Of a stretch of DNA of 33,036 bases, positions 3,158 to 32,646 are shown in pieces. Made by a program: the position numbers and the translations under genes. Location: positions 1 through 33,036 of the forward strand of contig JAFWJS010000042.1 in the NCBI GenBank assembly GCA_017511535.1. Direction: 5' to 3'. The stretch comes from Eubacterium sp. GTDB taxonomy: Bacteria > Bacillota > Clostridia > Peptostreptococcales > Anaerovoracaceae. Under the pieces are notes generated by a model. That model searched no databases, had not been told where the DNA came from, and saw nothing but the letters and a program-made list of their open reading frames with translations. Numbering within the stretch: position 1 is the stretch's first letter; each line of letters begins with the position of its first letter.

Positions 3158-5065
3158 TCACTGTTTCAGAAGACTTCTTATCATGCTGTCCATGGAATCG
3201 CTTCCTTCGGCAGTCCTAAGGACAGATCTTTTAAACAGAGGCAGTATGGATCTGACGTACGCCTTATCATCATCATTCAAAGTGACCATCACATCCACAT
3301 AGCCGGACGCGAATCTTACCGCGTCCTTCAGGAATGTATTGCCGCTTTTCATTCCCCTTACCGCTTCAGAACTCACAGTAAGCATTACATGTTTTACCGG
3401 AGACAGGCAGAGCCCTATAACAGTCTCGGGATCGCATGAATCCATTATACAGATAAGGTCGATATCCGCGTTCCCGTACATCCTGCGGTAAGTCAGCGCA
3501 TACTCATGAGACAGGAAAGAGATCGCTTTCCTGAAAGAGAGCTTCCCTGAAAGATACAGTTCCTTAACAGGCGCGCCGACTGAAGAAAGCGGCTGTGAAG
3601 ACAGTGAAGCAAGAACGTTGACGTCATGCAGAAGCGGATAGGCATTCTCCTTATGCTCGTCTGTGATCTTCTCGTCACAGCCGACATAGACGTCATACGC
3701 GTCGTTGCCTTTATTCAGCGCAAGATCCCTGACCATATCTGTTTCAGGCTCAGAAATGAAGCCGTCGGTATACAGCAGCACAGCTGATCTTCCGGAACGC
3801 GGCGCGGGAGACAGCTCCAGGCCGCTTTCATCTCCGAGGAACAGCCCGCAGAGCTTCTCCGGATTCTCCGCGCTGTCGTATCTGTAGAATGAAGTCAGGT
3901 CTTCCTTTTCTCCGGATGCATCTTCATCATCCCGGGCTTTATTGCCTGTTCTCAGCTTTTCCAGAAGCTCTTCCTTACTGTGCGCCAGGTCAAGCGGGAG
4001 CTTCCGTATATCGAGATTTAGTCCCTGATTCTCGTTATATGTGTCAAGGTCAGGGATATACAGGATCACCTTGTTACCCGTTATCAGATAATCAAAGAAG
4101 ATGCTGGAATAATCTGATATCAGCACATCTGTAACGGAAAGCACCTGGTATGTATCCAGCTCCGGCGGGAATTTCCGTATGTGTCTGCATCCGTCCAGAT
4201 CCAGACAGTTGTTTCTGTGTCTGTAATGATGCAGGTTCACATACAGGACCTCATCGTCCGAAAGGCTGGTCTCCATGTACTCAAGCATAGGGCTGATCAT
4301 CTCTATGAAGTCGTCGTCATCCATATACTCGCGGAATGTAGGCGCGTAAGCGTATATCCTGCCGCCGCCGGGCGCAAGTTCGGATCTCAGCTTCTTCTTC
4401 TCTTCATCTGTGACCTTAAGGATGCCTGCTGTCCTCGGATATCCCATCATGAGAGCCTGACCGGGCAGTATCTGCGATATCTGATATGACCTGTACATCA
4501 CGTCCTTAGTGAAATCATTCGGGTACATCAGATAATCTGAGCTCAGGAAATTTTTCTGTATCTGAGCGTTGACATGACACTTGTCGCCGTTTATCAAAGC
4601 GCCGAGACGCTTGAGAGGAGTGCCGTGCCATATGTTTATGAGCGTCTGCTCAGGCCTTTTTATATACTGATATGGGAACCAGCTCTCTGTAAGGAGATAC
4701 CTGCATGTCTCCATCATCATGTCATATTTCTTCGGAACAGTCGCAGTCCTGTTCCAGCCGTATTCTTTTATATGTTCGTTGACAGAAGCGTCTGTCTGTT
4801 CCGCCGTGGTGCGGACGTATATACGGAAGCCCTCGAATCTGCTGCTGTGGTTCAGCTCGTCCAGTATGTATTTCAGACTTCCGTTTATGTTTCTTCCGAG
4901 ACCGCATAATAAAACAGTCTTCTCCTGAACGGGAAGATCATAATAGTGATCGGTCACAGATCTTCTGGCCTTGCTGAGGCCGTTCCTGTGAATGATCTTC
5001 GTGTACTGCTTCTTGAGAGACGCGTACCTGTTTCTGTTCAGTTGGAAAGACTTTCTCTGTCCCAT
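3158..5065 (-). CDS. CDP-glycerol glycerophosphotransferase (TagB/TagF family) with extra C-terminal Rossmann-like domain
   Basis: This 635-residue enzyme belongs to the GT-B-fold family that moves glycerol- or ribitol-phosphate from a CDP-donor onto teichoic-acid chains at the cytoplasmic membrane face. The canonical acceptor/active-site motif IWHGTPLKRLG is at residues 145-155. YAYAPTFRE follows at ~238-246, an NLHHYRHR segment at ~277-284, and the DYSS donor-site motif at 318-321. Residues ~425-635 are not part of the usual catalytic domain. They begin AVLLYTDGFISEPETDMVRDLAL and resemble the N-terminal half of GT4-type glycosyltransferases, without a second Rossmann half. The start is 11 bases after the maf stop with only a weak ribosome site, suggesting translational coupling in the minus-strand operon. 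Glycerol versus another alditol as substrate cannot be decided. Confidence 0.85.
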   Translation of the reverse strand: MGQRKSFQLNRNRYASLKKQYTKIIHRNGLSKARRSVTDHYYDLPVQEKTVLLCGLGRNINGSLKYILDELNHSSRFEGFRIYVRTTAEQTDASVNEHIKEYGWNRTATVPKKYDMMMETCRYLLTESWFPYQYIKRPEQTLINIWHGTPLKRLGALINGDKCHVNAQIQKNFLSSDYLMYPNDFTKDVMYRSYQISQILPGQALMMGYPRTAGILKVTDEEKKKLRSELAPGGGRIYAYAPTFREYMDDDDFIEMISPMLEYMETSLSDDEVLYVNLHHYRHRNNCLDLDGCRHIRKFPPELDTYQVLSVTDVLISDYSSIFFDYLITGNKVILYIPDLDTYNENQGLNLDIRKLPLDLAHSKEELLEKLRTGNKARDDEDASGEKEDLTSFYRYDSAENPEKLCGLFLGDESGLELSPAPRSGRSAVLLYTDGFISEPETDMVRDLALNKGNDAYDVYVGCDEKITDEHKENAYPLLHDVNVLASLSSQPLSSVGAPVKELYLSGKLSFRKAISFLSHEYALTYRRMYGNADIDLICIMDSCDPETVIGLCLSPVKHVMLTVSSEAVRGMKSGNTFLKDAVRFASGYVDVMVTLNDDDKAYVRSILPLFKRSVLRTAEGSDSMDSMIRSLLKQ

Positions 5066-5076
5066 GGTGATCTGCT

Positions 5077-8684: not shown

Positions 8685-10103
8685 ATGCTTTTTTCAAGTA
8701 ACATATTCATATTTGTATTTCTTCCCAGTGTAATACTGATTTATTATACTTTACTCAGATCGAGCAGGAATGCCCAGAACATATTTCTGTTCCTCGCAAG
8801 CATATTTTTCTATGCCTGGGGGGAACCGAAATTCGTGCTGGTGATGCTGCTTTCGATCACGGCGAGCTGGTTTTTCGGTCTTATGGTCGACAAGTACAGG
8901 GAGGATAAGCCCAAGGCTCATCTTTTCATAGTTGCCGACGTTGCGTTCAACCTGTTCGTCATTTTCATTTTCAAATACCTGATGTTCACAGCGGAGAACA
9001 TCAATTTTCTTTTCGGAAGAGATGTCATAAAGGTGCCGTATATAATGCTCCCGATAGGCATCTCGTTCTTCACATTCCAGGCGATGTCATATGTTATCGA
9101 CATATACAGGAAGGATGGTAAGGCGCAGAAGAGCATCATAAACGTAGGACTATACATAGCCTTCTTCCCGCAGCTGATCGCCGGACCTATCGTAAGATAC
9201 CAGACTGTATCAGAACAGATACAGGACAGGAAAGAGACGCTTGATGATTTCGCTGACGGTGTTACCAGGTTCATAATCGGCTTCTCCAAGAAAGTGCTGA
9301 TAGCCAACAATATGGCGGTGATAGCTGACCAGGCCTTTTCTACCGCCGGGGACAACTCGTTCCTAATGGCGTGGCTCGGGGCTGTTGCATATACGTTCCA
9401 GATCTATTTCGACTTCGGCGGCTATTCCGACATGGCGATCGGTCTCGGAAAGATGTTCGGCTTCCACTTCCTGGAGAACTTCAACTATCCGTATATTTCG
9501 AAGTCGGCGACCGAGTTCTGGCGCAGATGGCACATCTCCCTGAGTACATGGTTCAGAGATTATCTGTACATTCCTCTTGGCGGGAACCGCGTTGATTCGG
9601 CTGCGAGGCATATCTTCAATATATTCTTCGTCTGGCTGATGACCGGCATATGGCACGGCGCCAACTGGACTTTCATAGCATGGGGCCTCATGTGGTTCTG
9701 CCTGCTGATATTCGAGAAATACTCCGGCTTCGATATTAAAGACGAGAGCCACAGGTACGGCGTGCTCAGGCACGTATATCTCATGTTTTTCGCTATACTC
9801 GGCTGGGTGATATTCAGAGCAGACAACATAACCCAGGCGTTCGTGTACATGAAGAATATGTTCTTCATAGGGACCGCAGTCATAGACGATGCTTTCCTTG
9901 AGTACTTCAGGCAGTACGCGCTGCTGTTCATAATAGCGGCTGTCGCTTCCACGCCTGTCGTGAAGTGGATCGGAGAGAAGAAATGGTCCAGGACTCAGGC
10001 GGCAGGCCTTGCGGGCGCTGCTGTACTAGCGGTACTGTTCCTTGTATCAGTATCGTTCCTCGTAAAAGACGCATATAATCCATTCATATATTTCAATTTC
10101 TAG
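8685..10103 (+). CDS. MBOAT family O-acyltransferase (AlgI/DltB/PatA type)
   Basis: This 472-residue multi-pass membrane protein belongs to the MBOAT family, which moves acyl groups across the membrane for esterification of exported polymers. Visible signatures are an N-terminal membrane segment followed by FYAWGEPKF, PIGISFFTFQAMSYVID (~123-139), FPQLIAGPIVRY (~161-172), YFDFGGYSDMAIGLGKMFGF, EFWRRWHISLSTWFRDYLYIPLGG (~278-300) and GIWHGANWTF (~321-330), where His324 is the expected catalytic histidine. Length fits the AlgI group. It starts 15 bases after the beta-helix gene with an AGGA site. It is followed by a DHHW/AlgX-like gene, the usual extracytoplasmic partner of AlgI-type MBOAT proteins. 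The most probable job is O-acetylation of a wall or capsular polymer; the acyl group is inferred. Confidence 0.93.
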   Translation: MLFSSNIFIFVFLPSVILIYYTLLRSSRNAQNIFLFLASIFFYAWGEPKFVLVMLLSITASWFFGLMVDKYREDKPKAHLFIVADVAFNLFVIFIFKYLMFTAENINFLFGRDVIKVPYIMLPIGISFFTFQAMSYVIDIYRKDGKAQKSIINVGLYIAFFPQLIAGPIVRYQTVSEQIQDRKETLDDFADGVTRFIIGFSKKVLIANNMAVIADQAFSTAGDNSFLMAWLGAVAYTFQIYFDFGGYSDMAIGLGKMFGFHFLENFNYPYISKSATEFWRRWHISLSTWFRDYLYIPLGGNRVDSAARHIFNIFFVWLMTGIWHGANWTFIAWGLMWFCLLIFEKYSGFDIKDESHRYGVLRHVYLMFFAILGWVIFRADNITQAFVYMKNMFFIGTAVIDDAFLEYFRQYALLFIIAAVASTPVVKWIGEKKWSRTQAAGLAGAAVLAVLFLVSVSFLVKDAYNPFIYFNF

Positions 10104-10111
10104 GAGCAGGG

Positions 10112-10957
10112 ATGAGCAGGATAAGCAAAAGATTACTGATGATATTCTTCGTGGCGGCGATATTCGTCGTCGGCGTGGGGACTCTGATAAACGCCAGACA
10201 TGACATCATGGATGCGGTCAGGGACAATCCTGTCTCCAAGACTCCTGATGCCGTGGAGACTGTACTTCAGAACGACTTCATGAGCAGGAACAGCTGGGTC
10301 AATCTGAACGGACTTGCGCAGAAGGCTATGCTGAAGACCGTAGTGAAAGACCCGGGAAAGACAGTGTACAGGCTGAGGAACGGACAGGTGATGTACGGCC
10401 TTCCTAAGCGTGATATGAAGAAATACGCAGGAAAGCTGGAGGAATTCAATACGTGGCTCAGGAATGAAGGCGTAGGTTTCCTGTACGTCCAGATCCCCTT
10501 CAAGATCAAAGATGACAGCTATATGCCTCCGGGGACACATGCCAACGGAAACGCGAACGCCGATCAGCTTATGAAGCTGCTGGACGAGAAAAAGGTGAAT
10601 CATCTGGACTTACGGGATGAGATAGAGAAAGACGGCCTGGACTGGACGAGCCTGTTCTTCAATACCGACCATCACTGGCGTCCTGCCGCGGGGCTCTGGG
10701 CGTCAGGAAAGATAATGAAGCGTGTTTCTGATGATTTCGGCTTTGACGTGGACATGAGCCATTACGATAAAGACAACTATACGTCGAAATGGTACAGGAA
10801 CTTCATGCTTGGGGCTGTAGGCCGCAGAACAGGCTACTGGTACAGCGGTCTTGACGACTTTGAGCTCCTTACGCCTAAGTACAAGACAGATTACGACTTC
10901 TGGGGCAAGAGCAAAGACGGCATCAAAAAAGCCAAGGCGACTACACGAAAACAATGA
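10112..10957 (+). CDS. DHHW family (AlgX/AlgJ-like) acetyltransferase partner, N-terminal part of a frameshifted gene
   Basis: This 281-residue frame starts after AGGAG with a signal-anchor helix (residues ~8-27) and contains the family motif TDHHWRP (185-191), which supplies the Asp and His of the SGNH-type active site. Around the A6 run at 10925-10930 the frame leaves the family pattern, reads ~9 unrelated residues and hits TGA at 10955. The matching C-terminal third is open in the -1 frame from 10954. Adding one A to the run would give a continuous 388-residue protein, the normal size for the family. The gene follows the MBOAT gene and would act outside the membrane to place acyl groups on the polymer. 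As it stands, the catalytic Asp/His and Ser are on separate frames. Confidence 0.8.
   Translation: MSRISKRLLMIFFVAAIFVVGVGTLINARHDIMDAVRDNPVSKTPDAVETVLQNDFMSRNSWVNLNGLAQKAMLKTVVKDPGKTVYRLRNGQVMYGLPKRDMKKYAGKLEEFNTWLRNEGVGFLYVQIPFKIKDDSYMPPGTHANGNANADQLMKLLDEKKVNHLDLRDEIEKDGLDWTSLFFNTDHHWRPAAGLWASGKIMKRVSDDFGFDVDMSHYDKDNYTSKWYRNFMLGAVGRRTGYWYSGLDDFELLTPKYKTDYDFWGKSKDGIKKAKATTRKQ
10925..10930 (+). other. A6 homopolymer at the likely frameshift point
   Basis: Frame analysis places the loss of frame at or just after this run: ATC-AAA-AAA-GCC upstream, and coherent family sequence in the -1 frame directly downstream. A single added A restores one 388-residue reading frame. This fits a homopolymer indel, a phase-variable tract or an assembly error. 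Confidence 0.6.
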
Positions 10958-11277
10958 TAATGAAGGAGAACCTTGACAGCCGCGCCGACTTCGAGGTGAA
11001 CACCTACGCCACATATATAGGGAAGAATTTCGCGAGGAACGTGATCAGGAACCGTATATGTAAGAACGGACTCAGGGTACTCTGGTTCAGCGAATCATTC
11101 TCGGGCGTGCTTATTCCGTTCGTTTCGGCGGATGTCGAGGAAATAACGACTATAGACCTGAGGAGATTCAAGGAAAAGAGCATGAAGGACTTCATCAGGG
11201 AATATAAGCCGGATGTGGTGATAGTAGCGTACAATCCGTCTGCGTTCAGTATGAAGCAGTTCAAATTCCTGGGATAG
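10954..11277 (+). CDS. DHHW family protein, C-terminal part downstream of the frameshift
   Basis: This 107-residue frame is the missing end of the upstream DHHW protein. It contains the strand-serine element GLRVLWFSESFSGVLIPF, which carries the expected nucleophilic Ser, followed by EEITTIDLRRF and KPDVVIVAYNPSAF, all in the order seen in intact family members. Read back in the same frame to the A6 run, the protein is continuous and sensible (KTMIMKENLDSRADFEVNTY), which supports a one-base loss rather than a separate gene. The ATG at 10954 overlaps the upstream TGA as ATGA, so re-initiation is conceivable, but no Shine-Dalgarno sequence precedes it. Confidence 0.7.
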   Translation: MIMKENLDSRADFEVNTYATYIGKNFARNVIRNRICKNGLRVLWFSESFSGVLIPFVSADVEEITTIDLRRFKEKSMKDFIREYKPDVVIVAYNPSAFSMKQFKFLG

Positions 11278-11298: not shown

Positions 11299-13848
11299 AT
11301 GGATAAACAGTTAAGCGTAGTGATAGTGATGGACCCGGAATCCATCGTATCAAAAGAGTCAGTCCTGTCGACCATAAAGACCATAGACAGCCATTACTCC
11401 GGAGAAAAAGACGAGCTGGAGTTTTTCTGCGCCGTGCCGGAAGCAAAGGCTGTTCAGGCAGAGAGCATATTCTCAAAGGTCAGGAAAAAGGTCAGCGGGA
11501 TCTGCAGCCCGAAGCTTGTTACAGAGAAAGTCATCAGCGGGAATGTGACAGGGGAATATGTTTTCATCCTCAAGCAGGGCGCTGTCATAACGTCCGGCGA
11601 TCTCGTCAGGATGATACACGCGGCCGAAGACAGCAGATGTCTCATACTTGAGCCGGAGAAGAACAAAAAAGAAAAGAGACCTTCGTCAGGATACATCTCG
11701 ATATATAACAGATATCAGTCTCTCCCGGAAGATCCTTACAATATACTGATCAGGATGTCGGAAGATATTGATCTCAGGCCGTTCGTCCTTCTGGATGAGG
11801 ACGCGAGAGAGCGCTTCATGGAGCTCATGATCAGAGACGAGGGTGTCTACTATTATAAAGGGGTCCAGATGGACTACATGGAAGCAGGATCCGGCTTTGA
11901 GGTCTCCGATGCAGATACCATGATAACGAAGCTTCTGGACTGCTCACGCCGTGAAAAAGGCTCGGTATGCAGATATGTACAGAACTACGTTCTTAAGCTT
12001 CTGCTTTCCAAAATGAAGGAGCATGCTCACGTAGACGGGCTTGAGAAGTATCTTCAGGATATTTCAGATGAAGCGATATGCCACAGCAAGGAACTTGATG
12101 TGCATCAGATCGTATATCTCCTCAGCAAGAAGTATGGCAAAGACGTAAGAGGCGACCTTTATGTCACAGATACAGGTCATCTCTGCATATATAATATCGA
12201 CATAGGAAACATCAACGCGGCGATACATATCAGAGTATCGATCTCGTCGATCAGAGATAAGAAGCTGATAATGGAAGGGATGACAGATCTTCCGTACCTG
12301 CTTTCGCCCGGATACAGGCTTCTGGCAAGCAACGGCTCAGGAGAAGACATCCCGGTCAAGGTCAGTCCGCTCAGGATAAACGATGAGGTCGGGTTCGACG
12401 GTGAGAAGTATTTCGAAGGACAGCAGTACAAGGTTGAGTTCCCGATAGAGAAGCCGGACGATTTCACATTCTATCTGCAGAAGGAGGACGGCTGGACATT
12501 AACGCTCAGCCCGAGAATGGGCGCATATTCCAGGCTCAATTCCAGGATCCAGGTCTCATACTTCAGCCTTAACGGCTATCTTGTCAAATGCAATCAGGGA
12601 GTGATACATGTTTCGCTGTACAGCAGGAAGCTGCACAGACAGTATGAGTGGAATTACATGAAAGCGCTCATACGTCTGAAGAAGCCGGCATGTGCGGTAT
12701 ACAGGCTGCTTTACTATATCGACAGCTTCTTCCAGAAAAAGCCGGTATGGCTCGTTATGGACAGGCCGCATCTTGCCAAGGATAACGGAGAGCATATGTT
12801 CAGATATCTTCAGACCACAGAAGCAGCGAAGAAGAACGATATATACTTCGTCCTGAAGAAGTCCAGCAGAGACTATGAGAGGCTGAAGAAAGTCGGAAAG
12901 GTACTGACGCATGATACGATAAGACACAGACTGAAGTTCCTCGAGGCGCAGGTCCTTATCGCTGCAGCGGCCAACAACCTTACTGTAAACGCTTTTGGTA
13001 AGAGAGGAGCCTATTACCGCGACCTGTATAATTTTGACTTCGTATATCTCCGCCACGGCGTATCGCATAACGACCAGAGCGAATGGCTGCACAGGCTGAA
13101 GAAGAACATGCGTATACTCGTCGCGACATGCAGGCCTGAATACGAGGGAATACTGCAGGGTGACTACGGCTATACAGAGCGTGAGGTGAAGCTCACGGGA
13201 CTCGCAAGATACGACAACCTCTACGACGATAAAAAGAAGATCATCGCGATACTTCCGACGTGGAGGCAGAACCTGGAAGGCGGTCTCGAATACAGATCGT
13301 CCAGGAGAGCATATATACCGGGGTTCAAAGATACTGATTATTTCAGATTCTATAACAGTCTGATCAACGACGAGAGACTTCTTTCCGTGATGAAGGAATA
13401 CGGATACACCGGAGTGTTCTATCTGCATCCTGTATTCGAAGCGCAGTTCCCTGACTTCAAGGGCAACGATACTATAACTGTCGGCAACGGAGTCGCGGAT
13501 TACCAGCAGGTGTTCAAGGAAAGCAGCCTGATGGTGACCGACTTCTCAAGCGTCGCCTTCGACTTCGCCTACCTGAAGAAGCCTGTGATATACTCACAGT
13601 TCGACGAGGAGACGTTCTACAAGTACCATACGTGGGGCAAGGGATACTTCACATACAGGACAGACGGATTCGGTCCGATAACCAACACGCTGGATGAGAC
13701 TGTCGATACGCTCATAGACTACATAAAGAACGGATGCATAATGAAGCCGGAATACGTCGAGAAAGTGGACAACTTCTTCGCATATACGGACAGAAACAAC
13801 TGTAAGAGAATTTATGAAGCTGTTGTTGAAGCCGAGAAGGACAGGTAA
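11299..13848 (+). CDS. CDP-glycerol glycerophosphotransferase family protein with N-terminal degenerate GT-A domain
   Basis: This 849-residue protein combines several parts. Residues 1-120 look like a GT2/GT-A domain (LSVVIVMDPE, GEYVFILKQGAVITSGDL), but the usual DxD-type acidic motif is replaced by LKQGA, so it is probably not an active sugar transferase. Residues ~130-285 are helical and ~286-430 a beta-rich accessory domain. Residues ~480-845 are the TagF-type GT-B domain, with YLRHGVSHNDQ (H586), ILPTWRQNL (651-659), YLHPVF (~708-713), DFSSVAFDFAYLKKPVIY (748-765) and a GYFTYRTDGFGPI segment. AGAGGAGG ends three bases before the ATG. It follows the DHHW gene by 21 bases and precedes two further TagF genes. 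It probably transfers an alditol-phosphate to a wall polymer; the donor is unknown. Confidence 0.85.
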   Translation: MDKQLSVVIVMDPESIVSKESVLSTIKTIDSHYSGEKDELEFFCAVPEAKAVQAESIFSKVRKKVSGICSPKLVTEKVISGNVTGEYVFILKQGAVITSGDLVRMIHAAEDSRCLILEPEKNKKEKRPSSGYISIYNRYQSLPEDPYNILIRMSEDIDLRPFVLLDEDARERFMELMIRDEGVYYYKGVQMDYMEAGSGFEVSDADTMITKLLDCSRREKGSVCRYVQNYVLKLLLSKMKEHAHVDGLEKYLQDISDEAICHSKELDVHQIVYLLSKKYGKDVRGDLYVTDTGHLCIYNIDIGNINAAIHIRVSISSIRDKKLIMEGMTDLPYLLSPGYRLLASNGSGEDIPVKVSPLRINDEVGFDGEKYFEGQQYKVEFPIEKPDDFTFYLQKEDGWTLTLSPRMGAYSRLNSRIQVSYFSLNGYLVKCNQGVIHVSLYSRKLHRQYEWNYMKALIRLKKPACAVYRLLYYIDSFFQKKPVWLVMDRPHLAKDNGEHMFRYLQTTEAAKKNDIYFVLKKSSRDYERLKKVGKVLTHDTIRHRLKFLEAQVLIAAAANNLTVNAFGKRGAYYRDLYNFDFVYLRHGVSHNDQSEWLHRLKKNMRILVATCRPEYEGILQGDYGYTEREVKLTGLARYDNLYDDKKKIIAILPTWRQNLEGGLEYRSSRRAYIPGFKDTDYFRFYNSLINDERLLSVMKEYGYTGVFYLHPVFEAQFPDFKGNDTITVGNGVADYQQVFKESSLMVTDFSSVAFDFAYLKKPVIYSQFDEETFYKYHTWGKGYFTYRTDGFGPITNTLDETVDTLIDYIKNGCIMKPEYVEKVDNFFAYTDRNNCKRIYEAVVEAEKDR

Positions 13849-20799: not shown

Positions 20800-20844
20800 A
20801 CATTATGTATGAATATATTCATCCGAAGAGATGGAGGAGATCTT

Positions 20845-23774: not shown

Positions 23775-24662
23775 ATGAAAGGTATTATTCTTGCCGGCGG
23801 AAGCGGGACAAGGCTCTATCCTCTCACGAGCGTAACGAGCAAACAGCTTCTTCCGGTGTATGACAAGCCGATGATCTATTATCCATTGTCCACGCTCATG
23901 CTTGCGGGGGTCAGGGATATCCTGATCATTTCGACTCCGGAAGATACAGATAAGTTCCGGGCCCTGCTGGGTGACGGATCTCAGTTCGGGATCAGTCTTT
24001 CATATGCAGTGCAGCCTTCGCCTGACGGTCTTGCGCAGGCGTTCATCATCGGCGAGGAGTTCATTGCCGGCGACAGCTGCGCCATGATCCTCGGCGACAA
24101 TATCTTCTACGGGCACGGTCTTGTGGCAAGGCTGAAGAAAGCGGTCTCGATGGTCGAGGAGCAGGGTAAGGCTACAGTCTTCGGTTACCTGGTCGACGAT
24201 CCGGAAAGGTTCGGCGTAGTCGAGTTCGATGAGAACATGAACGCCGTGTCGATCGAGGAGAAACCGGAGCACCCGAAGTCGAACTTTGCTGTCACAGGAC
24301 TTTATTTCTATGACGGAAGAGTGTCAGAAATGGCGAAGAAGGTAAAGCCGAGCGCCAGAGGAGAGCTTGAGATAACAGACCTGAACAAGCTGTATCTTGA
24401 AGAGGGAAGGCTCTCTGTGCAGAATCTCGGGCGTGGATTCGCCTGGATGGACACAGGAACGATGGATTCCCTTCTGGAGGCGTCCGACTTCGTGAGGATG
24501 GTCGAACGAAATCAGGGCATAGTGATATCGGCGCCTGAAGAGATAGCGTACAATGAAGGCTGGATCAGCAGCGAAGACTTGAAAGACGCAATAAGTAAAT
24601 ATGGCAATTCGCTTTACGGCAAGCATCTGAAGAGGGTGCTTTCAGGCGCGAAATTCTGGTAG
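23775..24662 (+). CDS. rfbA: Glucose-1-phosphate thymidylyltransferase
   Basis: The 295-residue product makes dTDP-glucose from glucose-1-phosphate and dTTP. It has the nucleotide-binding motif [14 protein letters not shown] (~5-18), the [24 protein letters not shown] region, [45 protein letters not shown] and [18 protein letters not shown], all highly conserved in RmlA. Length matches the family. The ATG directly follows the LCP stop codon (TAA-ATG) and no Shine-Dalgarno sequence is seen, so translation is likely coupled. rfbB is next, but rfbC and rfbD are absent from the window. Confidence 0.96.
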
Positions 24663-24670
24663 AGGTGGAC

Positions 24671-25690
24671 ATGAACATACTTGTGACCGGAGCCGCAGGC
24701 TTCATAGGAAGCAACTTCACATATTATATGCTGGACAGGCATCCTGAGGACAGAATAGTCGCTCTGGATGCTTTAACATATGCAGGGAACCTGGAGACGC
24801 TGAAAGAGGCTTTTGATAATGAGAACTTCCGGTTCATGAAAGGCGACATATCAGACAGGGAAGCGGTATATAAACTGTTTGACGAAGAGAGATTCGACAT
24901 AGTCGTCAACTTCGCCGCGGAGACACATGTCGACAGGTCTATAGAAGACCCTGCGCTGTTCCTGAAGACCAATGTCCTCGGGACTCAGGTGCTTCTGGAC
25001 GCGGCAAGAGATCACGATGTGAAGAGGTTCCACCAGATCGGAACGGATGAAGTGTACGGCGACCTTCCTCTGGACAGGCCGGATCTGTTCTTTAAAGAGG
25101 ATATGCCGCTTAAGGCAAGCAGTCCTTATTCGGCAAGCAAGGCGTCGGCGGACCTGATCACGCTGGCATACCACAGAACGTACGGGCTTCCTGTTACGGT
25201 ATCAAGGTGTTCCAACAATTACGGGCCGTACCAGTTCCCGGAGAAACTCATCCCTCTTGTCATCTACCGCGCTGAGAACGACGAGACGATACCTGTATAC
25301 GGGACAGGGGAGAACGTCCGCGACTGGCTGTACGTGATGGATCACTGCCGCGCGGTCGACATGATCATGAGGGACGGCCGTGACGGCGAGATCTACAACA
25401 TAGGGGGGCACAACGAGCGCGACAATCTCACAGTGGTCAAAACCATCCTTAAGCATCTTGGAAAGCCGGAGAGCCTGATCACTTTCGTGACAGACAGGAA
25501 GGGCCACGATAAGAGATACGCGATCGACCCTGAGAAGGTAGGAAGAGAGCTGGGCTGGGAGCCTGAAACAGACTTCGACAGCGGTATCGCTGAGACTATA
25601 GACTGGTATATCGAACACAGAGACTGGTGGGAGCACATAGTCTCGGGAGACTACCAGAACTACTATCAGAAAATGTATGAGGGAAGGTAA
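24671..25690 (+). CDS. rfbB: dTDP-glucose 4,6-dehydratase
   Basis: This 339-residue extended short-chain dehydrogenase converts dTDP-glucose to dTDP-4-keto-6-deoxyglucose. The NAD-binding motif TGAAGFIGSN is at ~6-15, VNFAAETHVDRSIEDP at ~79-94, TDEVYG at ~125-130 and the catalytic YSASK at ~153-157, with NNYGPYQFPEKLIPL and YVMDHCRA further on. The ATG at 24671 is preferred to the in-frame GTG at 24665, because AGAGGTGG (24661-24668) acts as the ribosome site for the ATG. It lies between rfbA and a TagF-type gene. Without RfbC/RfbD here, the 4-keto sugar may be processed by the SDR at 29821-30882 or by enzymes outside the window. Confidence 0.96.
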   Translation: MNILVTGAAGFIGSNFTYYMLDRHPEDRIVALDALTYAGNLETLKEAFDNENFRFMKGDISDREAVYKLFDEERFDIVVNFAAETHVDRSIEDPALFLKTNVLGTQVLLDAARDHDVKRFHQIGTDEVYGDLPLDRPDLFFKEDMPLKASSPYSASKASADLITLAYHRTYGLPVTVSRCSNNYGPYQFPEKLIPLVIYRAENDETIPVYGTGENVRDWLYVMDHCRAVDMIMRDGRDGEIYNIGGHNERDNLTVVKTILKHLGKPESLITFVTDRKGHDKRYAIDPEKVGRELGWEPETDFDSGIAETIDWYIEHRDWWEHIVSGDYQNYYQKMYEGR

Positions 25691-25692: not shown

Positions 25693-27276
25693 TTGAGTCC
25701 GTACTTCACAGTTGAGAAAATGGAATGGCATAACATGTTCCTTCTGATCACCGTATCGTCAGACGCAGAAGGGGCGTGCTTTGAAGCCGCGCCAAGGCAG
25801 AGGCAGGGCGCCGTATATCCGGTGCCTTCTTCTGACGTGGAAGAGTCCTCAGGTTCATACCTCATAAAGCTGAATATTTCTGACACTGCGGAGAGATCGT
25901 TTCTCGGGAACGGCGAATGGGTGCTGAGAAGCACTGATGGAACAGAACTCAGAGCCTCATATGAGGCAGCGTATGCGTTCCGTGATCTGTCCAGAGTGTT
26001 CAGATATGCCGGCGGGAAAGCTTATGTACTGACGCCGGAAGTGGATACAGAAGCGGAAGACAGAGCGGACGGCACCGCGGGATTCTTCTTCTCCAGTACG
26101 TTCATGAAGGAAGATAACAGCTGGCAGGATAAATCCTCCGGCCTTAGGAATATCGTTTACAGGGCGCTGAGAGGCCTTTCAAGACGTGAGCATGCTCCCG
26201 GTAAGGGGCATGTCCTTTTCATGACAGAGACTAAAGATCACCTTACGGGGAATCTTAAGGCGGTCCACGATAAGATGCTTGAAAGAGGCATGGATAAAGA
26301 CTATGTCATATCGGTGTACGCGAGAAACGACGTGAACGGCGGACTGGGCGTGAAAGGACTGCTCAGGCTCCGAAGCATGATAGCAGATCAGGACTATATA
26401 TTCGTCGACGACTACGCGCCCCTGTTCACGTTCCTGGACCCGCCTGAGGGATCCAGATTCATCCAGCTGTGGCACGCAGCCGTCGGGTTCAAATCAGTAG
26501 GGTACAGCAGGTTCGGACGCGCCGGATCGCCGCACCCGTCGTGGTCATGCCACAGGAAATATACGGATGTCATCGTGCCGCATGAGGACCTGATCGACGT
26601 TTACCGTGAAGTGTTCGGCGTAGAGAGGGCAGCGTTCAGGGTATGCGGATCGCCCAGACTTGACGGATTCGGAGATCCGGACAGGATACAGAGCGCATGC
26701 CGGAATCTCAGAGAAGGATATCCGGTACTGGACGGGAAGCGTCTGATACTCTTTGCCCCTACGTTCAGAGGGCCGGGTGAGAAAGACGCGTACTACGATG
26801 AGAACAGGCTGGACCTTGCCAGACTGTATGAGTGCTGCGGGGAAGACACGGTGTTCGGCGTCAGGATGCACCCGTTCGTGAAGAAGAAGTTCAGCATACC
26901 CAAGGAGTATTCCGACAGGATACTGGACCTCAGCGGTCCTTCTGACATAAACGACCTTTACTATGCGGCGGATATCCTGATAACTGATTATTCCTCAGAC
27001 TATTTCGAGTTCGCACTCCTGAGGAAGCCTGTGCTCTTCTATACATACGACAGAGACATGTATCAGCTCGGACGGGGAGTCCATCGGGACATAAAGAAGA
27101 CTGCGCCGGGGAAGGTGTGCGATACGATGGACGAGCTTGTTGAAGCTTTGAAAAACAAGGACTTTGATACGGATAAGACTGAGAGGTTCGCGGACAGGTA
27201 CGAAAGTGTGCTTGGAAGATCCGCGGCTGATGAAGTGATAGACCAGATCATCTGTGGAAAGAAGGCGGTAGAGTGA
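25693..27276 (+). CDS. CDP-glycerol glycerophosphotransferase family protein (LWHA subgroup)
   Basis: The 527-residue product has an N-terminal beta domain (~1-110) and a TagF-type GT-B domain (~170-520). Landmarks are IQLWHAAVGFKSVGYSRFG (257-275), ILFAPTFRGPGEKDAYY (~352-368), VRMHPFVKKKFSIPKEYSDRI (390-410), ILITDYSSDYFEFALLRKP (428-446) and KVCDTMDEL. The first motif has WHA instead of WHG. It is a clear paralogue of the gene at 30889-32646, sharing also the N-terminal pattern of an acidic/basic residue, Trp and FLxI. The TTG start is supported by GGGAAGG five bases upstream and by that N-terminal match. It starts two bases after rfbB and its stop overlaps the next gene's GTG by four bases. 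The transferred alditol-phosphate is not known. Confidence 0.87.
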   Translation: MSPYFTVEKMEWHNMFLLITVSSDAEGACFEAAPRQRQGAVYPVPSSDVEESSGSYLIKLNISDTAERSFLGNGEWVLRSTDGTELRASYEAAYAFRDLSRVFRYAGGKAYVLTPEVDTEAEDRADGTAGFFFSSTFMKEDNSWQDKSSGLRNIVYRALRGLSRREHAPGKGHVLFMTETKDHLTGNLKAVHDKMLERGMDKDYVISVYARNDVNGGLGVKGLLRLRSMIADQDYIFVDDYAPLFTFLDPPEGSRFIQLWHAAVGFKSVGYSRFGRAGSPHPSWSCHRKYTDVIVPHEDLIDVYREVFGVERAAFRVCGSPRLDGFGDPDRIQSACRNLREGYPVLDGKRLILFAPTFRGPGEKDAYYDENRLDLARLYECCGEDTVFGVRMHPFVKKKFSIPKEYSDRILDLSGPSDINDLYYAADILITDYSSDYFEFALLRKPVLFYTYDRDMYQLGRGVHRDIKKTAPGKVCDTMDELVEALKNKDFDTDKTERFADRYESVLGRSAADEVIDQIICGKKAVE

Positions 27277-28025
27277 GTAAGAACATAGCTGTGATATTCG
27301 CCGGCGGATCCGGGATACGGATGGGAAGCGGTATGCCGAAGCAGTTCCTGAAGATAAACGGACAGCCGATAATCGTGTATACGCTTGAGATATTTGAAGA
27401 CAGCCCTGATATCGACGAGATATATATCGCGTGTAAGGAAGACTACATCGCCAAGCTGGAGAAATACATCACGAGATACCAGCTGAGCAAGGTGAAGAAG
27501 GTAGTCCCGGGCGGTGAGACAGCTCTCGATTCCATATACAACGGGCTAAAGGCGGCGTCGGAAGATAATGAAGACAGCTCGGTCGTTCTCATACATGACG
27601 GAGTAAGGCCGTTCATACCGCAAGAGCTGATAGCCAGGAACATAGAGTGCGTGGAAGAGCACGGAAGCGCGATAACGTGCACGCCGATGTTCGAAACGCC
27701 TGTAAGGAGCAACGGAGGCGAGATGATCGAGGAAGTCGTCCCGAGAGACGTGATGTTCACGGCGCAGGCTCCGCAGAGCTTCCGCCTTGGCGATATACTG
27801 GACGCATACGACACAGTACACAGTGAAAGCGGCTTCGGAGGGCTCGTGGATTCGTGCTCCATATACAAGAAGGCCGGCCACGACGTGGCTCTCGTCAGGG
27901 GCAACAGAGGCAATATCAAAGTCACTACGCCTGAAGACCTGTATCTTTTCAGAGGCCTTCTGAACTACAGAGAGACGCAGCAGACGATGGGATTTGCCGA
28001 CGGTGAAATGGACAGATTTATCTAG
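27273..28025 (+). CDS. IspD/TarI-like CDP-alditol cytidylyltransferase
   Basis: The 250-residue product belongs to the IspD/TarI cytidylyltransferase family. The CTP-binding loop FAGGSGIRMGSGMPKQFL is at ~9-26, with VVPGGETALDSIYNGL, VLIHDGVRPFI, TPMFETPV, TAQAPQSFRLGDIL and IKVTTPEDLYLFRGLL further on. IspD makes CDP-methylerythritol and TarI makes CDP-ribitol. The setting between TagF genes and just before tagD favours a teichoic-acid role. No TarJ-type reductase is adjacent, so ribitol is not established and another alditol-phosphate is possible. The GTG start overlaps the previous stop as GTGA and is preceded by an AAGG-like site. Confidence 0.88.
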   Translation: MSKNIAVIFAGGSGIRMGSGMPKQFLKINGQPIIVYTLEIFEDSPDIDEIYIACKEDYIAKLEKYITRYQLSKVKKVVPGGETALDSIYNGLKAASEDNEDSSVVLIHDGVRPFIPQELIARNIECVEEHGSAITCTPMFETPVRSNGGEMIEEVVPRDVMFTAQAPQSFRLGDILDAYDTVHSESGFGGLVDSCSIYKKAGHDVALVRGNRGNIKVTTPEDLYLFRGLLNYRETQQTMGFADGEMDRFI

Positions 28026-28037: not shown

Positions 28038-28427
28038 ATGAAAAGAGTTATTACTTATGGTACTTACGATCTTCTGCATTATGGACATGTCAACCTTCTC
28101 AGAAGAGCCAAGGAATACGGCGATTATCTGATCGTCGCTCTTTCGACTGACGAATTCAACTGGGAAAGCAAGCAGAAGAAATGCTACTTCAGCTATGAGA
28201 TCCGTAAACAGCTGGTCGAATCGATCAGATACGTGGACCTCGTTATCCCTGAAGAAAGCTGGGAACAGAAGATAAACGACATCAAGGAGTATCACGTCGA
28301 TACTTTCGTTATGGGAGACGACTGGAAGGGTAAGTTCGACTTCCTGAAAGATTACTGCGACGTAGTATACCTCCCGAGGACGCCGGAGATCTCAACTACG
28401 CAGATAAAGAAGGATCTCGGTAAATAG
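28038..28427 (+). CDS. tagD: Glycerol-3-phosphate cytidylyltransferase
   Basis: This 129-residue enzyme makes CDP-glycerol from CTP and glycerol-3-phosphate, the donor for the TagF-type transferases around it. The cytidylyltransferase signature is complete: VITYGTYDLLHYGHVNLLRRAK with HYGH at 14-17, then STDEFN, VMGDDWKGKFD and RTPEISTTQIKKDL (114-127), the RTxxISTT motif. Length equals Bacillus TagD. GAGG lies seven bases before the ATG, and the gene sits 12 bases after the IspD/TarI-like gene and two bases before the next TagF-like gene. Its codon use is closer to highly expressed genes than that of its neighbours, with many ATC and few ATA codons. Confidence 0.96.
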   Translation: MKRVITYGTYDLLHYGHVNLLRRAKEYGDYLIVALSTDEFNWESKQKKCYFSYEIRKQLVESIRYVDLVIPEESWEQKINDIKEYHVDTFVMGDDWKGKFDFLKDYCDVVYLPRTPEISTTQIKKDLGK

Positions 28428-28429: not shown

Positions 28430-29797
28430 ATGAGCGTAAAGGCGATACTCGGAAACATAAAGAAATACGGGATCCTGGAAACGTGGCGGATGCACCGTAA
28501 GAGAGACGCCGAGCGCAGGCTGGTAGTAAAGCGTGAGAAGACCTTCATAGAAAATGAGAAGGACGAGCTTGATCCTGAAGATCCTGATTACATGGAGTTC
28601 ATGGAGAGGCTCAGTGATCCTAAGGATTTCAAGAAGTATCTCCGCGAGCTCCACGACAGAGTCGTGAAAGACGAGCTTCCTCAGATCTATGAGGAATACT
28701 CCGGGCAGCCTGCTGAAGACAAGATCATCGTGATGGAGAGGGGGAACAGCCCCTCTCCTTCAAGTGCGCATCTTGCGGAAGTGCTGGAATCTCAGGGAAA
28801 GTACAGGATCATATATATGAGCCTCGGGATCAGAGAAGTCTCGATGCTTAAATACTATGAGAACGTCCGCGGGTTCATAAAGGAGATGGCGACAGCGAAA
28901 GCAGTGCTGATCTCCACGGCGAACGATTTCCTGAGCTTTATCGACGTACGTCCTGAGACTAAGATAATCCAGCTGTGGCACGGAGTCGGAATGTTCAAGA
29001 AAGTCGGCTACAGCACGCTGTCCAGCAAGGGGTTCGGGCTGAACAAGGAATACAGGGACGTCTTCGATCAGTATAAAAATTATTCATATGTCACGATAGC
29101 GTCTGAAGAACAGGCATGGATGTTCGAGGACGCGATGCATATAAGCAGGGACTCCGGGGTGCTTGCGCCGGTAGGCATTTCACGGACAGACCTGTTTTTT
29201 GATGAGAAATATAAGAAAGAAGCCAGAAGGCAGATGGAGGAGCTCTGCCCTGCGGTGAAGGGGAGAAAAATAATACTCTACGCTCCTACTTTCCGCGGCA
29301 CGGTGAACGCTCCGACGGCTCCCGATAAGCTTGATATCGACGCGTTCGGGGAGGCTCTCTCAGATGAGTACGTCCTCTTCATAAAACATCATTCCGTATG
29401 CGAGAACGTAAGGAAGGAGATCCCTGAGAAGTGGCGCGACAGCTTCTGCTACGACATGAACGCAAGGCCGGACCTTTCCATAGAGAAGCTCCTTATCCTG
29501 GCCGACGTGTGCATCACAGACTATTCGTCGATAGCGTTTGAGTATTCGATACTTGAGAGGCCGATGTTGTTCTTCGCGTATGACCTGGACGACTACCTGG
29601 ACGAGAGAGGGATGTATCTGGACTACGATGAAGTGACGCCGGGACCTGTATGCAGGACGAATCAGGAGATGATAAGCTGCATCAGGTCGCTCCCGGAGGG
29701 CTTTGACCGTGAAGAGGTGTCAGCGTTCCGTAAGAAATATGTAGGCATGTGCGACGGGCACGCGACAGAAAGAACGATAGAGCTGATAGAGAGCTGA
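28430..29797 (+). CDS. CDP-glycerol glycerophosphotransferase family protein (LWHG subgroup)
   Basis: The 455-residue product has a charged, helical N-terminus (~1-95) without the beta domain seen in its paralogues, followed by a TagF-type GT-B domain. Motifs are IIQLWHGVGMFKKVGYSTLSSKGFG (179-203, His184), IILYAPTFRGTVNAP (~281-295), FIKHHSV (~317-323), CITDYSSIAFEYSILERPMLFF (361-382) and a MYLDYDEVTPGPVC segment. It follows tagD by two bases with only a weak ribosome site, so translation is probably coupled to production of the CDP-glycerol-making enzyme. That makes it the best candidate here for a strictly CDP-glycerol-dependent transferase, though this is inferred from position only. Confidence 0.88.
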   Translation: MSVKAILGNIKKYGILETWRMHRKRDAERRLVVKREKTFIENEKDELDPEDPDYMEFMERLSDPKDFKKYLRELHDRVVKDELPQIYEEYSGQPAEDKIIVMERGNSPSPSSAHLAEVLESQGKYRIIYMSLGIREVSMLKYYENVRGFIKEMATAKAVLISTANDFLSFIDVRPETKIIQLWHGVGMFKKVGYSTLSSKGFGLNKEYRDVFDQYKNYSYVTIASEEQAWMFEDAMHISRDSGVLAPVGISRTDLFFDEKYKKEARRQMEELCPAVKGRKIILYAPTFRGTVNAPTAPDKLDIDAFGEALSDEYVLFIKHHSVCENVRKEIPEKWRDSFCYDMNARPDLSIEKLLILADVCITDYSSIAFEYSILERPMLFFAYDLDDYLDERGMYLDYDEVTPGPVCRTNQEMISCIRSLPEGFDREEVSAFRKKYVGMCDGHATERTIELIES

Positions 29798-29820: not shown

Positions 29821-30882
29821 ATGAGAAGCAGCATAATCGAAGAGGACATAAGGCGGATCACCGCAAACGATCTGCCGTGGGACGTCTTCAGGAACAAGAC
29901 CATACTGATAACAGGAGCGAGCGGTATGATACCGTCGTATTTCCTGTACACTTTTCTCAGGCTGAACGATACGGCCGGTATGGGGATCAAAGTGATCGCG
30001 CTCGTAAGGAACAAAGAGAAAGCGGAGAAGATCCTCGGGGACGACCTTAAGCGTGACGATGTGGAGCTTGTCGTGCAGGACGTGTCAGAGCCGCTTTCGG
30101 TCACAGAGCATATAGACTATATCTTCCACGGAGGGAGCGCCGCAAGGCCTGCGGACCATAAGACTTCGCCGACTTCGACGATACGCGCGAACATCATAGG
30201 AACGTTCAATCTGCTCGACTACGCCGTGAAGACAGGCTCCGAGGCGTTCATTCTGATGTCTTCATCTGAGGTGTACGGGAAGCAGCCGGAAACGGAAAGC
30301 GGCACTGTCAAAGCGATAACCGAGGACGACTACGGAAAAGTGGATACGCTGGATCCAAGGTCATGCTATTCGGAGGGGAAGCGCGCTGCCGAAACGATCG
30401 GCGCATGTTACCAGGCTGAATTCGGTATCAGGTTCGTAAGCCCCAGGTTCGCGCATATCTACGGGCCCGGGCTCATGATGAACGACGGGAGAGTGCAGGC
30501 GGATTTCGCGGCCAATGTGTTCAGGGGCGAAGACATCGTTATGAACAGCGACGGCAGTTCGGTGAGAGCATATACGTATGTTGCCGACGCGTGCGCGGGG
30601 GTGTTCTACGCATTGCTGAAGGGCAGCGATACAGCATATAACGTGGCGGATAACGACAGCATCATATCCATCAGAGAGCTTGCGGAGGCTTTCGTCGCGG
30701 CCAGGCCTGAGAAAGGGCTCAAGGTCGTGATCAAAGCGCCTTCGGACGATTCCAGAAGCTACAATAAAGTCAGCTTCATAGGGCTGTCCGGAGACAAGCT
30801 CAAAGCGCTCGGATGGAAGCCGGAGATACACGCGGAAGAAGGCGTGAAGAGGATGATATCACACCTGGAGGAGACAGAGTAA
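29821..30882 (+). CDS. NAD-dependent epimerase/dehydratase (extended SDR)
   Basis: The 353-residue product is an extended short-chain dehydrogenase of the nucleotide-sugar epimerase/dehydratase type. The NAD-binding motif ILITGASGMIPSYFLY is at ~27-42, with DYIFHGGSAARPADHKTSP, LMSSSEVYGKQ and the catalytic YSEGKRAAE, then SPRFAHIYGPGLMM and YVADACAGVFYALL. The ATG at 29821 has GAGGTG five bases upstream; an in-frame upstream ATG lies inside the preceding gene and is rejected. The exact substrate is unknown: it may act on the dTDP-4-keto-6-deoxyglucose from RfbB, or on the product of the IspD/TarI-like enzyme. It sits between two TagF-type genes. Confidence 0.88.
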   Translation: MRSSIIEEDIRRITANDLPWDVFRNKTILITGASGMIPSYFLYTFLRLNDTAGMGIKVIALVRNKEKAEKILGDDLKRDDVELVVQDVSEPLSVTEHIDYIFHGGSAARPADHKTSPTSTIRANIIGTFNLLDYAVKTGSEAFILMSSSEVYGKQPETESGTVKAITEDDYGKVDTLDPRSCYSEGKRAAETIGACYQAEFGIRFVSPRFAHIYGPGLMMNDGRVQADFAANVFRGEDIVMNSDGSSVRAYTYVADACAGVFYALLKGSDTAYNVADNDSIISIRELAEAFVAARPEKGLKVVIKAPSDDSRSYNKVSFIGLSGDKLKALGWKPEIHAEEGVKRMISHLEETE

Positions 30883-30888
30883 GACGAT

Positions 30889-32646
30889 ATGTACACCGGA
30901 TGTGTTACTGACATAAAGTGGGAGCGTGTGTTCCTAACGATAAGCGGAACGGCTGAGAGGGTGTGCGGCGGGGACGAAGAAGAAAAGCTTCTCCGCAGAA
31001 GATATGCAGGCCTCTACGCCGACCGTGACAAAGGGCGCGCGGGAGCAGCGGATCTTTCATACGAGCAGATAGAGCGTACCTTCAGCGGGCACGCAGAGCA
31101 GCTTGCGGCGGCGGCAGGAGACGGGTACGACCCTGACAAGGCGTACTTTTTCCCGAGAAACGAGGACTATCTGAATTCATTCCTGTTGGAGGACTGCAGC
31201 TGCGCTGACGGAAGATTCAGCATCACGATCAACGTTACGACGTTCAGGGACAGGAAAGCTGTGCCTGAAGGCATCTACTATATCTCTGTGTTCCACGACG
31301 GTATCGATATGGAGCTTGGGATATCAATAGATCTCGCGGCGAGGAGCTTCGACATATCCCGGCCGTTCGTTTACGACAAGAGGAGGTCATGCTACCTTGT
31401 GAGCTTCTCGTCGACAAACGACGAGCAGGACCCGGTCTTCAGGACTCAGGTCATGATGCTCCAGACTAAGATCAAAAAGAAGTTTGACCTGAAGAGAGCC
31501 TGGCGTGAAGGCCGCGACTTACTGATCAAAAAGCTCATCGTCCTGTATTACAACATCCTGTATCACATCCTCCCGCATAATGGGAAACACATACTGTTCG
31601 CTACTGAATCGAGGGGAGATATACAGGGCAATCTCAAGGCTGTATACGACCGCATGAAAGAACGCGGTCTCGATAAGGAGTACAGGATAAGCCTGTCGGG
31701 GCGCCGCGCGGCAGGAGGGCACTCAAGCCGTGCGTCCTGGATCAGGACGGTATCGCTGTTTGCCGCTGCAGATATCATACTCATAGACGACTATGCTCCG
31801 ATGCTGACGTGGCTCAGACTGAAGAAGGGGACGACGCTGATCCAGCTCTGGCACGCCGGAGTCGGTTTCAAATCTGTTGGACTGTGCAGGTTCGGTGCAA
31901 ACGGCTCGCCTCATCTGAACAATGCGCACAGGCAGTATGACTATGCGGTCGTGGGGTCGCACAGTCTGAAGAAAGTGTATTCCGAGGTGTTCGGGATAGA
32001 AGAGGACGCTCTGATACCTACAGGGCTTCCAAGGATGGACAAAGTCATCGACAAGGGAGAGAATGACAAGCGCAGGACGGAGTTCTATGAGCTGTATCCG
32101 GATCTCAGGGACAGGAAGATCATCATGTTCGCTCCGACATTCCGCGGCGTCAACGCCAAAGAGGCGTATTATCCTTACGACAAGCTCGACATGAAGCGCA
32201 TATATGACATGTGCGGCGATGAATATGTCTTTATATTCAAGATGCATCCGTTCGTGAAAGACCGTCCGCCTATACCGGAGGAGTATTCTGACAGGATCAG
32301 AGATCTCAGCGGTGCGGGGGACGTGAACGCGATGCTCCCTGTCGTGGATGTGATGATAACTGACTATTCATCCATCATATATGAGTTCTCTACGTTCAGA
32401 AAGCCGATGCTGTTCTTCGCATTCGATGAGAAGAGCTATTCCGTCATAAGAGGTTTCCAGAGCGATTATGAGGATTTTGCTCCGGGAAAGATCTGCAGGA
32501 ACATGGATGAGCTCGAGGATGCCGTCAGGAACAGAGATTACGATATTGAGAAAGTCGACCGGTTCATAAGTGAGAACTTCGACTATCTTGACGCCGGATC
32601 CTCAGACAGATTCATAGACTGGCTGATACTGAAGAAGCCGCACTGA
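30889..32646 (+). CDS. CDP-glycerol glycerophosphotransferase family protein (LWHA subgroup, paralogue)
   Basis: The 585-residue product has an N-terminal beta domain (~1-190) and a TagF-type GT-B domain (~230-580). Key segments are IQLWHAGVGFKSVGLCRFG (318-336), IIMFAPTFRGVNAKEAYY (~411-428), FKMHPFVKDRPPIPEEYSDRI (450-470), MITDYSSIIYEFSTFRKPMLFF (489-510) and APGKICRNMDELEDAVRNRDYD. It is the closest relative in the window of the protein at 25693-27276, with the same WHA variant and the same order of motifs, so the two probably arose by duplication. The start is six bases after the SDR stop, without a strong ribosome site. It is the last gene before a long regulatory gap, so the operon may end here, although no convincing terminator is seen. 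Confidence 0.87.
   Translation: MYTGCVTDIKWERVFLTISGTAERVCGGDEEEKLLRRRYAGLYADRDKGRAGAADLSYEQIERTFSGHAEQLAAAAGDGYDPDKAYFFPRNEDYLNSFLLEDCSCADGRFSITINVTTFRDRKAVPEGIYYISVFHDGIDMELGISIDLAARSFDISRPFVYDKRRSCYLVSFSSTNDEQDPVFRTQVMMLQTKIKKKFDLKRAWREGRDLLIKKLIVLYYNILYHILPHNGKHILFATESRGDIQGNLKAVYDRMKERGLDKEYRISLSGRRAAGGHSSRASWIRTVSLFAAADIILIDDYAPMLTWLRLKKGTTLIQLWHAGVGFKSVGLCRFGANGSPHLNNAHRQYDYAVVGSHSLKKVYSEVFGIEEDALIPTGLPRMDKVIDKGENDKRRTEFYELYPDLRDRKIIMFAPTFRGVNAKEAYYPYDKLDMKRIYDMCGDEYVFIFKMHPFVKDRPPIPEEYSDRIRDLSGAGDVNAMLPVVDVMITDYSSIIYEFSTFRKPMLFFAFDEKSYSVIRGFQSDYEDFAPGKICRNMDELEDAVRNRDYDIEKVDRFISENFDYLDAGSSDRFIDWLILKKPH

Follow-up and report, generated by a model that had tools for sequence, protein, structure and literature searches.

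Our analysis points, on balance, to a teichoic-acid-like wall polymer built from two cytidine diphosphate (CDP)-alditol donors as the product of a locus on contig JAFWJS010000042.1 of Eubacterium sp. (assembly GCA_017511535.1), the whole 33,036-nucleotide length of which is referred to here as the window. One donor would supply glycerol phosphate and the other a second alditol phosphate, probably not ribitol phosphate. The locus contains seven genes, lettered A to G (Table 1; gene D comprises the modules D1 and D2), that carry TagF-type (PF04464) domains. Its most telling aspect is not how many such domains it has but the interleaving of two donor pathways with several TarL/TagF families, one of which tracks a CDP-alditol route that does not involve TarJ. 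The assembly comprises 1,377,549 bases in 55 contigs and is 88.4% complete; the contig stops at position 33036, cutting the locus on its right side, and the closest relative (genome G009) has an extra PF04464 gene downstream of its equivalent of G.

Two predicted donor pathways in one operon

The initial annotation proposed a polymer made from several alditol phosphates or linkages, and the gene content agrees with it in that more than one alditol donor is probably supplied. The same operon encodes TagD, which exceeds its equivalog cut-off, and an IspD-family cytidylyltransferase, TarI', with an extended short-chain dehydrogenase/reductase (SDR) that resembles CDP-ketose reductases. The two sets are intermingled, with TagD and F standing between TarI' (PF01128) and the SDR (PF01370). 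TarI' is probably not an isoprenoid enzyme because a second IspD is present on contig C17 of the assembly.

Abp1 and Abp2 belong to a CDP-arabinitol pathway. As in that pathway, and in those for CDP-mannitol (Mnp1/Mnp2) and CDP-glucitol (HS5.18/HS5.17), the window combines an IspD-family cytidylyltransferase with an extended SDR (excerpt of PMC10918830). Here, in contrast, the pair lies in a teichoic-acid-like operon with TarL-like enzymes; the residue comparison below is with HS5.17. The same excerpt reports about 400 IspD plus SDR pairs, names Mnp1/Mnp2 as characterized, and describes HS5.17 (structure 8v4g) as a Campylobacter CDP-6-fructose reductase. The SDR of the window retains R56, K60 and D212 of HS5.17, positions in contact with the cofactor and the cytosine, where the UDP-glucuronate decarboxylase UXS1 has D, T and N; among the 16 loci compared, out of 80, R56 and K60 are present in all and D212 in 15. 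Differences from HS5.17 fall at contact positions 34, 98, 100, 139, 195, 196, 226 and 227 (Y295 left out). Of these, Gln196, which in HS5.17 contacts the C3' and C4' hydroxyls of the alditol (excerpt of PMC10918830), is replaced by His in the SDR and in 16/16 of the loci compared.

Across genomes, TarI' and the SDR behave as a unit. In a scan of named sequences with the SDR alignment, the best 80 of 474 matches were kept, and all counts for named SDR loci refer to these. An IspD-like gene lies no more than 300 bp from the SDR in 65 of the 80 loci and on the retained flank in 75, and of the remaining five, four lie close to the end of a contig or on a short one. PF04464 genes occur in 67 of the 80, and TarJ was found on the retained flanks of none. 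At all 75 loci with an IspD, the window's type of TarI' outscores the type of TarI that is paired with TarJ. In the family, a tblastn check, which recovers the second TarI of G012 and leaves out G039 with its weaker matches to both reductases, found window-type TarI' on the same stretch as the SDR in 9/9 genomes with the SDR (G001, G003, G006, G009, G012, G014, G015, G020, G048), and the other TarI type beside TarJ in 9/9 genomes with TarJ (G002, G005, G006, G007, G008, G012, G026, G047, G056). Both complete pairs are thus present in G006 and G012. A TarJ-type zinc alcohol dehydrogenase had no match in the window's genome (E<=1e-40; genome 88% complete), while 10 of 98 relatives have one. Within the genus (17 genomes), TarJ occurs in six genomes and the SDR in eight, the window's genome having the SDR only.

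The named SDR loci include Lachnospiraceae, Erysipelotrichaceae, Streptomyces and Brachybacterium, and close named matches to the SDR carry the labels Mogibacterium or uncultured Clostridiales. The Streptomyces and Brachybacterium proteins are 52-55% identical to that of the window and the listed Lachnospiraceae ones 38-46%; in two Actinomycetota loci (L072 and L080) the SDR adjoins IspD and PF04464 genes. This likeness suggests transfer across phyla.

Eight TagF-type domains from distinct and old groups

The count of eight domains in seven genes given by the initial annotation was upheld, with every open reading frame (ORF) present at its coordinates and strand and every match far above the PF04464 cut-off of 22.1 bits (in order from A to G, 176, 131, 139, 357 in two stretches, 226, 216 and 247 bits). 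A search of the whole assembly returned exactly eight PF04464 domains, all on this contig and with zero internal stops. Alignment of the eight domains places the first histidine in the motifs IWHGTPLK (A) and TWHGTPLK (D1) of clade I, LRHGVSHND (B), LGHGVLALK (C) and LQHGVTAMK (D2) of clade II, and LWHAAVGFK (E), LWHGVGMFK (F) and LWHAGVGFK (G) of a third group. The C-terminal signatures described earlier are also present, GSYxDLEKDLPG in C and D2 and GYFTYRTDGFGP in B. Both conserved TagF histidines, the catalytic role of which is treated in an excerpt of PMC11666461, are retained in 8/8 domains and are invariant in 11 clade II sequences. The PF04464 enzymes have a GT-B fold like that of TagF, clade II being likewise TagF-like in fold.

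Phylogeny recovers the three motif groups of the initial annotation as real clades, but divides two of them, the second into B versus C/D2 and the third into F versus E/G. In a tree of 111 rows, A and D1 share a clade with Cps3D, adjacent to TagF. B, C and D2 fall in a deep separate clade (16 rows; Shimodaira-Hasegawa-like approximate likelihood ratio test, SH-aLRT, 100) that lacks the Trp of the WHG motif and branches apart from the TagF, Cps3D and Bcs3 polymerases (3l7i, 8qoy, 8a0c); within it, B clusters with proteins from many Clostridia and Bacilli, C and D2 with those of G009 only. F occupies a clade of its own, and E and G lie in a 20-row subclade near TarL. A tree restricted to the family (84 domains, 24 genomes) returns the same groups, and in a 48-row tree the E/G and F clades, with 26 and 10 rows respectively, each have 100/100 support. 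In the latter tree E/G and TarL share a 99/97 clade with an unresolved inner order. Over about 350 residues, E and G are 32% and 38% identical to the TarL ribitol-phosphate polymerase (8va1), and E (277 bits), G (325 bits) and F (180 bits) score under the 1000-bit cut-off of the TarL equivalog NF041713.

The trees indicate that the eight domains are old paralogues that form distinct groups, rather than recent copies of one specificity. The closest pairs in the window, E/G and C/D2, share 45% and 42% identity. Recent tandem duplication of one enzyme was discarded as an origin, since D1, D2, E, F and G each join their G009 counterparts before any paralogue in the window; A pairs with an enzyme of G010, and C is without a separate counterpart in the set.

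Association of transferase clades with donor genes

In the family, enzymes of the E/G clade tend to accompany the IspD/SDR pair, and the other TarL-type enzymes TarI/TarJ. In the family tree, the E/G clade has 12 rows, of which nine come from genomes with the SDR only, two from genomes with both pairs, one from a genome with neither (G058) and none from a genome with TarJ only. The other TarL-type rows number four, three from TarJ-only genomes (G002, G007, G056) and one from a dual genome. The association of the SDR with the E/G clade by row has a Fisher p of 0.008, a test that ignores shared ancestry. G006, which has both pairs, holds one E/G enzyme and one TarL-type enzyme.

Gene neighborhoods extend this picture. 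The 133 PF04464 ORFs of 79 named loci (the syntenic relative L062 left out) were assigned to clades by best match, and enzymes of about 380 aa, designated clade P, were kept apart from F in the final assignment. Ten enzymes adjoin TagD, six belonging to F, three to other clades and one to E/G (p=6e-6 for F). The 56 that adjoin TarI' or the SDR comprise 28 of E/G, 13 of clade II, 10 of P, five others and none of F (p=0.0013 for E/G). As an inference, this supports the pairing of F with glycerol and of E/G with the SDR product. Together, co-occurrence and phylogeny set the TarL-like clade linked to IspD/SDR apart from the TarL-type enzymes linked to TarI/TarJ, so that 'ribitol' may be a mistaken label where annotation of such genomes is automatic. 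No paper linking the IspD/SDR pair to a TarL-like clade turned up among those listed by our literature search. The small set of enzymes named here could supply new alditol-phosphate polymerases, and the locus provides a genetic handle on the wall polymers of gut Clostridia, many of which are represented here only by metagenome-assembled genomes.

Proposed pathway and alternative readings

The assignment of domains, catalytic residues, clades, pathway families and co-occurrence is sequence-based, and from it we infer each of the substrates, the polymer and the alternation step proposed here. The likeliest users of CDP-glycerol, which TagD would make, are F and the two clade I domains, A and D1. 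TarI' would activate a ketose phosphate with CTP, after which the SDR, with NADPH, would reduce the CDP-ketose to the second CDP-alditol; cytidylylation followed by reduction would be the reverse of the TarJ/TarI order. The second alditol is probably not ribitol; arabinitol and the hexitols are examples of what it may be. Its phosphate would be transferred or polymerized by E and G, the enzymes that group with TarL. The clade II domains (B, C and D2) are predicted to be intact GT-B phosphotransferases, for which we leave the donor unspecified. The presence of D1 and D2 in one chain suggests alternating addition. TagGH would export the completed chain, the LytR-CpsA-Psr (LCP) ligase would join it to peptidoglycan, and the MBOAT/AlgX proteins may acylate it. 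A more specific form of this proposal, which we advance tentatively and as possible rather than probable, is that E and G define a family of TarL-like polymerases that use the phosphate of an alditol other than ribitol (arabinitol or hexitol), supplied via IspD/SDR; that, with F and clade II, they build a copolymer of glycerol phosphate and the second alditol phosphate on a lipid without the TagA disaccharide; and that the genus diversifies this polymer by swapping PF04464 genes.

Several observations weigh against the two-donor proposal. TarI' passes the cut-off of the ribitol-5-phosphate cytidylyltransferase subfamily NF001183 (185.7 vs 166 bits; a TarJ-paired TarI of the genus reaches 326.8), which makes ribitol a possible second alditol. 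By sequence, the best solved match of the SDR is a UDP-glucuronate decarboxylase (134 bits), above HS5.17 (92 bits); E140, R164, Y167, K171, R208 and R233 are common to the SDR, HS5.17 and UXS1 (R233 in 15/16 loci), and positions 98, 100 and 139 of the SDR are decarboxylase-like. Counted by genome, the association of the SDR with the E/G clade is borderline (8/9 vs 1/4, p=0.052), and the TarL-type rows of G002 and G007 are near-identical. G012, with both pairs, has an E/G row and no TarL-type row, and G015, which lacks a TarJ match, holds a transferase from the clade that elsewhere goes with TarJ. In G058, an E/G enzyme occurs in a genome without SDR or TarJ. The named loci were chosen by their SDR, their counts ignore shared ancestry, and clade II enzymes, too, adjoin the TarI'/SDR pair.

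The strongest alternative is an ordinary glycerol/ribitol teichoic acid, in which TarI' and the SDR provide another route to CDP-ribitol, E and G act like TarL, and the extra copies reflect redundancy or strain variation. The grouping of E and G with TarL at the identities given above and the NF001183 score of TarI' accord with it, as does the presence of both tag and tarIJKL genes in the Lactobacillus plantarum genome (excerpt of PMC3511166). We nevertheless consider it fairly unlikely, as the genome has no TarJ match, E and G form a separate 100/100 clade, and both pairs in G006 and G012 would be redundant. Less probable again are two surface polymers, one made with TagD, TarI' and the SDR by E, F and G, and a second from the variable 5' half (A to D and MBOAT/AlgX). 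G009 shares the 3' half as a syntenic block (TagGH-LCP-RmlAB-E-TarI'-TagD-F-SDR-G) and has a different 5' half, and clade II is deeply separate; yet the window has one TagGH pair and one LCP gene, and D-type enzymes stand beside the same operon in G009 too. A reading in which the SDR acts on UDP-sugars, as a UDP-glucuronate decarboxylase or a similar enzyme, and TarI' acts alone, the polymer using a single extra alditol plus a UDP-pentose, is very improbable despite the best structural match and the three decarboxylase-like residues, given the IspD within 300 bp in most named loci, the window-type TarI' in all nine SDR-bearing family genomes, the HS5.17-like NADP- and cytosine-contact positions 56, 60 and 212, and the lack of a sugar transferase match in the window to use a UDP-pentose.

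In two of the genomes mentioned above, other genes lie near the transferases. In G058, locus L183 (3979-8104) encodes a GatZ-like aldolase subunit, an IspD-like protein and a zinc alcohol dehydrogenase beside the E/G-type enzyme. This set is a possible third CDP-alditol module, galactitol-like as a guess, and the E/G clade may serve several alditols. In G015, locus L053 (10174-13767) holds a zinc alcohol dehydrogenase and a ribulose-phosphate 3-epimerase, with an IspD-like stretch, PF04464 genes and the transferase of the TarJ-linked clade nearby; it is possibly another alditol-phosphate supply module.

Relation to wall teichoic acid loci: export, sugars and linkage

The locus shares TagD, PF04464 transferases or polymerases, TagGH, LCP and an IspD-family cytidylyltransferase with the tag and tar loci of wall teichoic acid synthesis. 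It differs from them in its eight PF04464 domains and in the SDR that stands in place of TarJ, with TarJ and TagA unmatched in the genome. The TagGH exporter and LCP ligase are recognized at family level (Pfam ABC and LCP families, with conserved gene order). The sulfatase-superfamily protein scores 42.6 bits against an LtaS cut-off of 970. Of the overlapping ORFs of the AlgX/DHHW-like gene, one matches the N-terminal part and the other the C-terminal part of longer relatives (L054, L042, L185), a split that reflects either a real frameshift or an assembly error.

Pfam scanning of 22 window proteins agrees with the earlier statement that the window has no complete sugar glycosyltransferase, though a sugar-free polymer is not thereby shown. 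We dropped this absence as proof of such a polymer in view of the cut contig and of a possible outlet for RmlA and RmlB on contig C25. There, locus L185 (6388-13817) encodes WecE (607.6 bits, cut-off 375), YfhO (304.7 bits), a GT2 enzyme and a second MBOAT/AlgX pair; the GT2 enzyme is ArnC/PgfS-like and under the cut-offs of those families. RmlB of the window has no close second copy, its next match in the genome being 32% identical. From these sequences, RmlA-RmlB-WecE-GT2-YfhO is a plausible route for extracytoplasmic, lipid-linked decoration with an amino-deoxyhexose. Genome-wide glycosyltransferase searches covered PF00535, PF00534 and PF03808, and gave one PF00535 match and three PF00534 matches, one of which is glycogen synthase. 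In G009, the six non-PF04464 and seven PF04464 ORFs scanned in loci L038-L040 matched no glycosyltransferase family, bar a weak Polysacc_synt match.

TagA/WecG (PF03808) was matched in 0/17 genus genomes, of which 13 reach 90% completeness or more with contamination no higher than 5%, and the control was positive in 7/14; several of these genomes hold TagGH, LCP and TarL-type genes although TagA/WecG is unmatched. The linkage unit may therefore be something other than ManNAc-GlcNAc. Contig C39 encodes a WecA-like initiator (138 bits vs a 326-bit cut-off), and C43 encodes MraY.

Domain number in the genus and class

Eight domains had been contrasted with two to four such enzymes in typical teichoic acid loci, and this number is indeed extreme for the class but ordinary for the genus. 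The 16 genus mates have 4, 8, 2, 2, 7, 7, 7, 2, 11, 3, 0, 5, 2, 7, 4 and 2 PF04464 domains, and 43 other family members have at most four, a few of these counts including split matches. In a class sample of 243 genomes, the window's included, 69 have any PF04464 domain; the other genus member has seven and the maximum outside the genus is five. The class search scored seven of nine candidates in the window's genome and so shows seven domains for it, an undercount by one. The genus is a PF04464 hotspot, and the window is typical for it.

Features of the locus

Table 1. Genes of the polymer locus with their coordinates in the window
Feature	Coordinates	Strand	Evidence
A: TagF-type GT-B domain (clade I, WHGTPLK) and a C-terminal region of ~230 aa without Pfam match	3158..5065	-	
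MBOAT O-acyltransferase, probable polymer modification (inferred)	8685..10103	+	PF03062, 106 bits
AlgX/DHHW-like partner of MBOAT, two ORFs (10112-10957, 10954-11277)	10112..11277	+	
B: clade II TagF-type domain (RHG), preceded by an N-terminus that is at most a diverged GT2-like region	11299..13848	+	
C: clade II TagF-type enzyme (GHG; GSYVDLEKDLPG)	13869..15503	+	
D: bimodular; module 1 clade I (TagF/Cps3D-like), module 2 clade II (QHG)	15493..18627	+	
LtaS/sulfatase-superfamily membrane protein	18633..20867	-	PF00884
TagG-like ABC exporter permease	20782..21654	+	Pfam, kept in relatives
TagH-like ABC exporter ATPase	21663..22445	+	Pfam, kept in relatives
LytR-CpsA-Psr ligase, polymer to peptidoglycan (inferred)	22458..23774	+	PF03816, 120 bits
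RmlA, glucose-1-phosphate thymidylyltransferase	23775..24662	+	470.9 bits, cut-off 360.65
RmlB, dTDP-glucose 4,6-dehydratase	24665..25690	+	479.7 bits, cut-off 365.1
E: TarL-like, in the clade associated with IspD/SDR	25693..27276	+	
TarI', IspD-family cytidylyltransferase	27273..28025	+	
TagD, glycerol-3-phosphate cytidylyltransferase	28038..28427	+	TIGR01518, 207.8 bits, cut-off 165.4
F: TagF-type, clade of its own, adjoins TagD	28430..29797	+	
Extended SDR, partner of TarI' and similar to CDP-ketose reductases; ATG 29821 is the likely start	29821..30882	+	
G: TarL-like, in the clade associated with IspD/SDR	30889..32646	+	

Two further ORFs lie among these genes or at their edge. At 2565-3134, a 189-aa ORF matches only the start of the acyltransferase family PF01757 (30.1 bits vs a cut-off of 31), and as its G009 counterpart is 360 aa long, the copy in the window looks shortened. 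Among the polymer genes, 6999-8669 encodes a right-handed beta-helix protein with a NosD-like match, and a weakly similar counterpart is found in the same region of G009.

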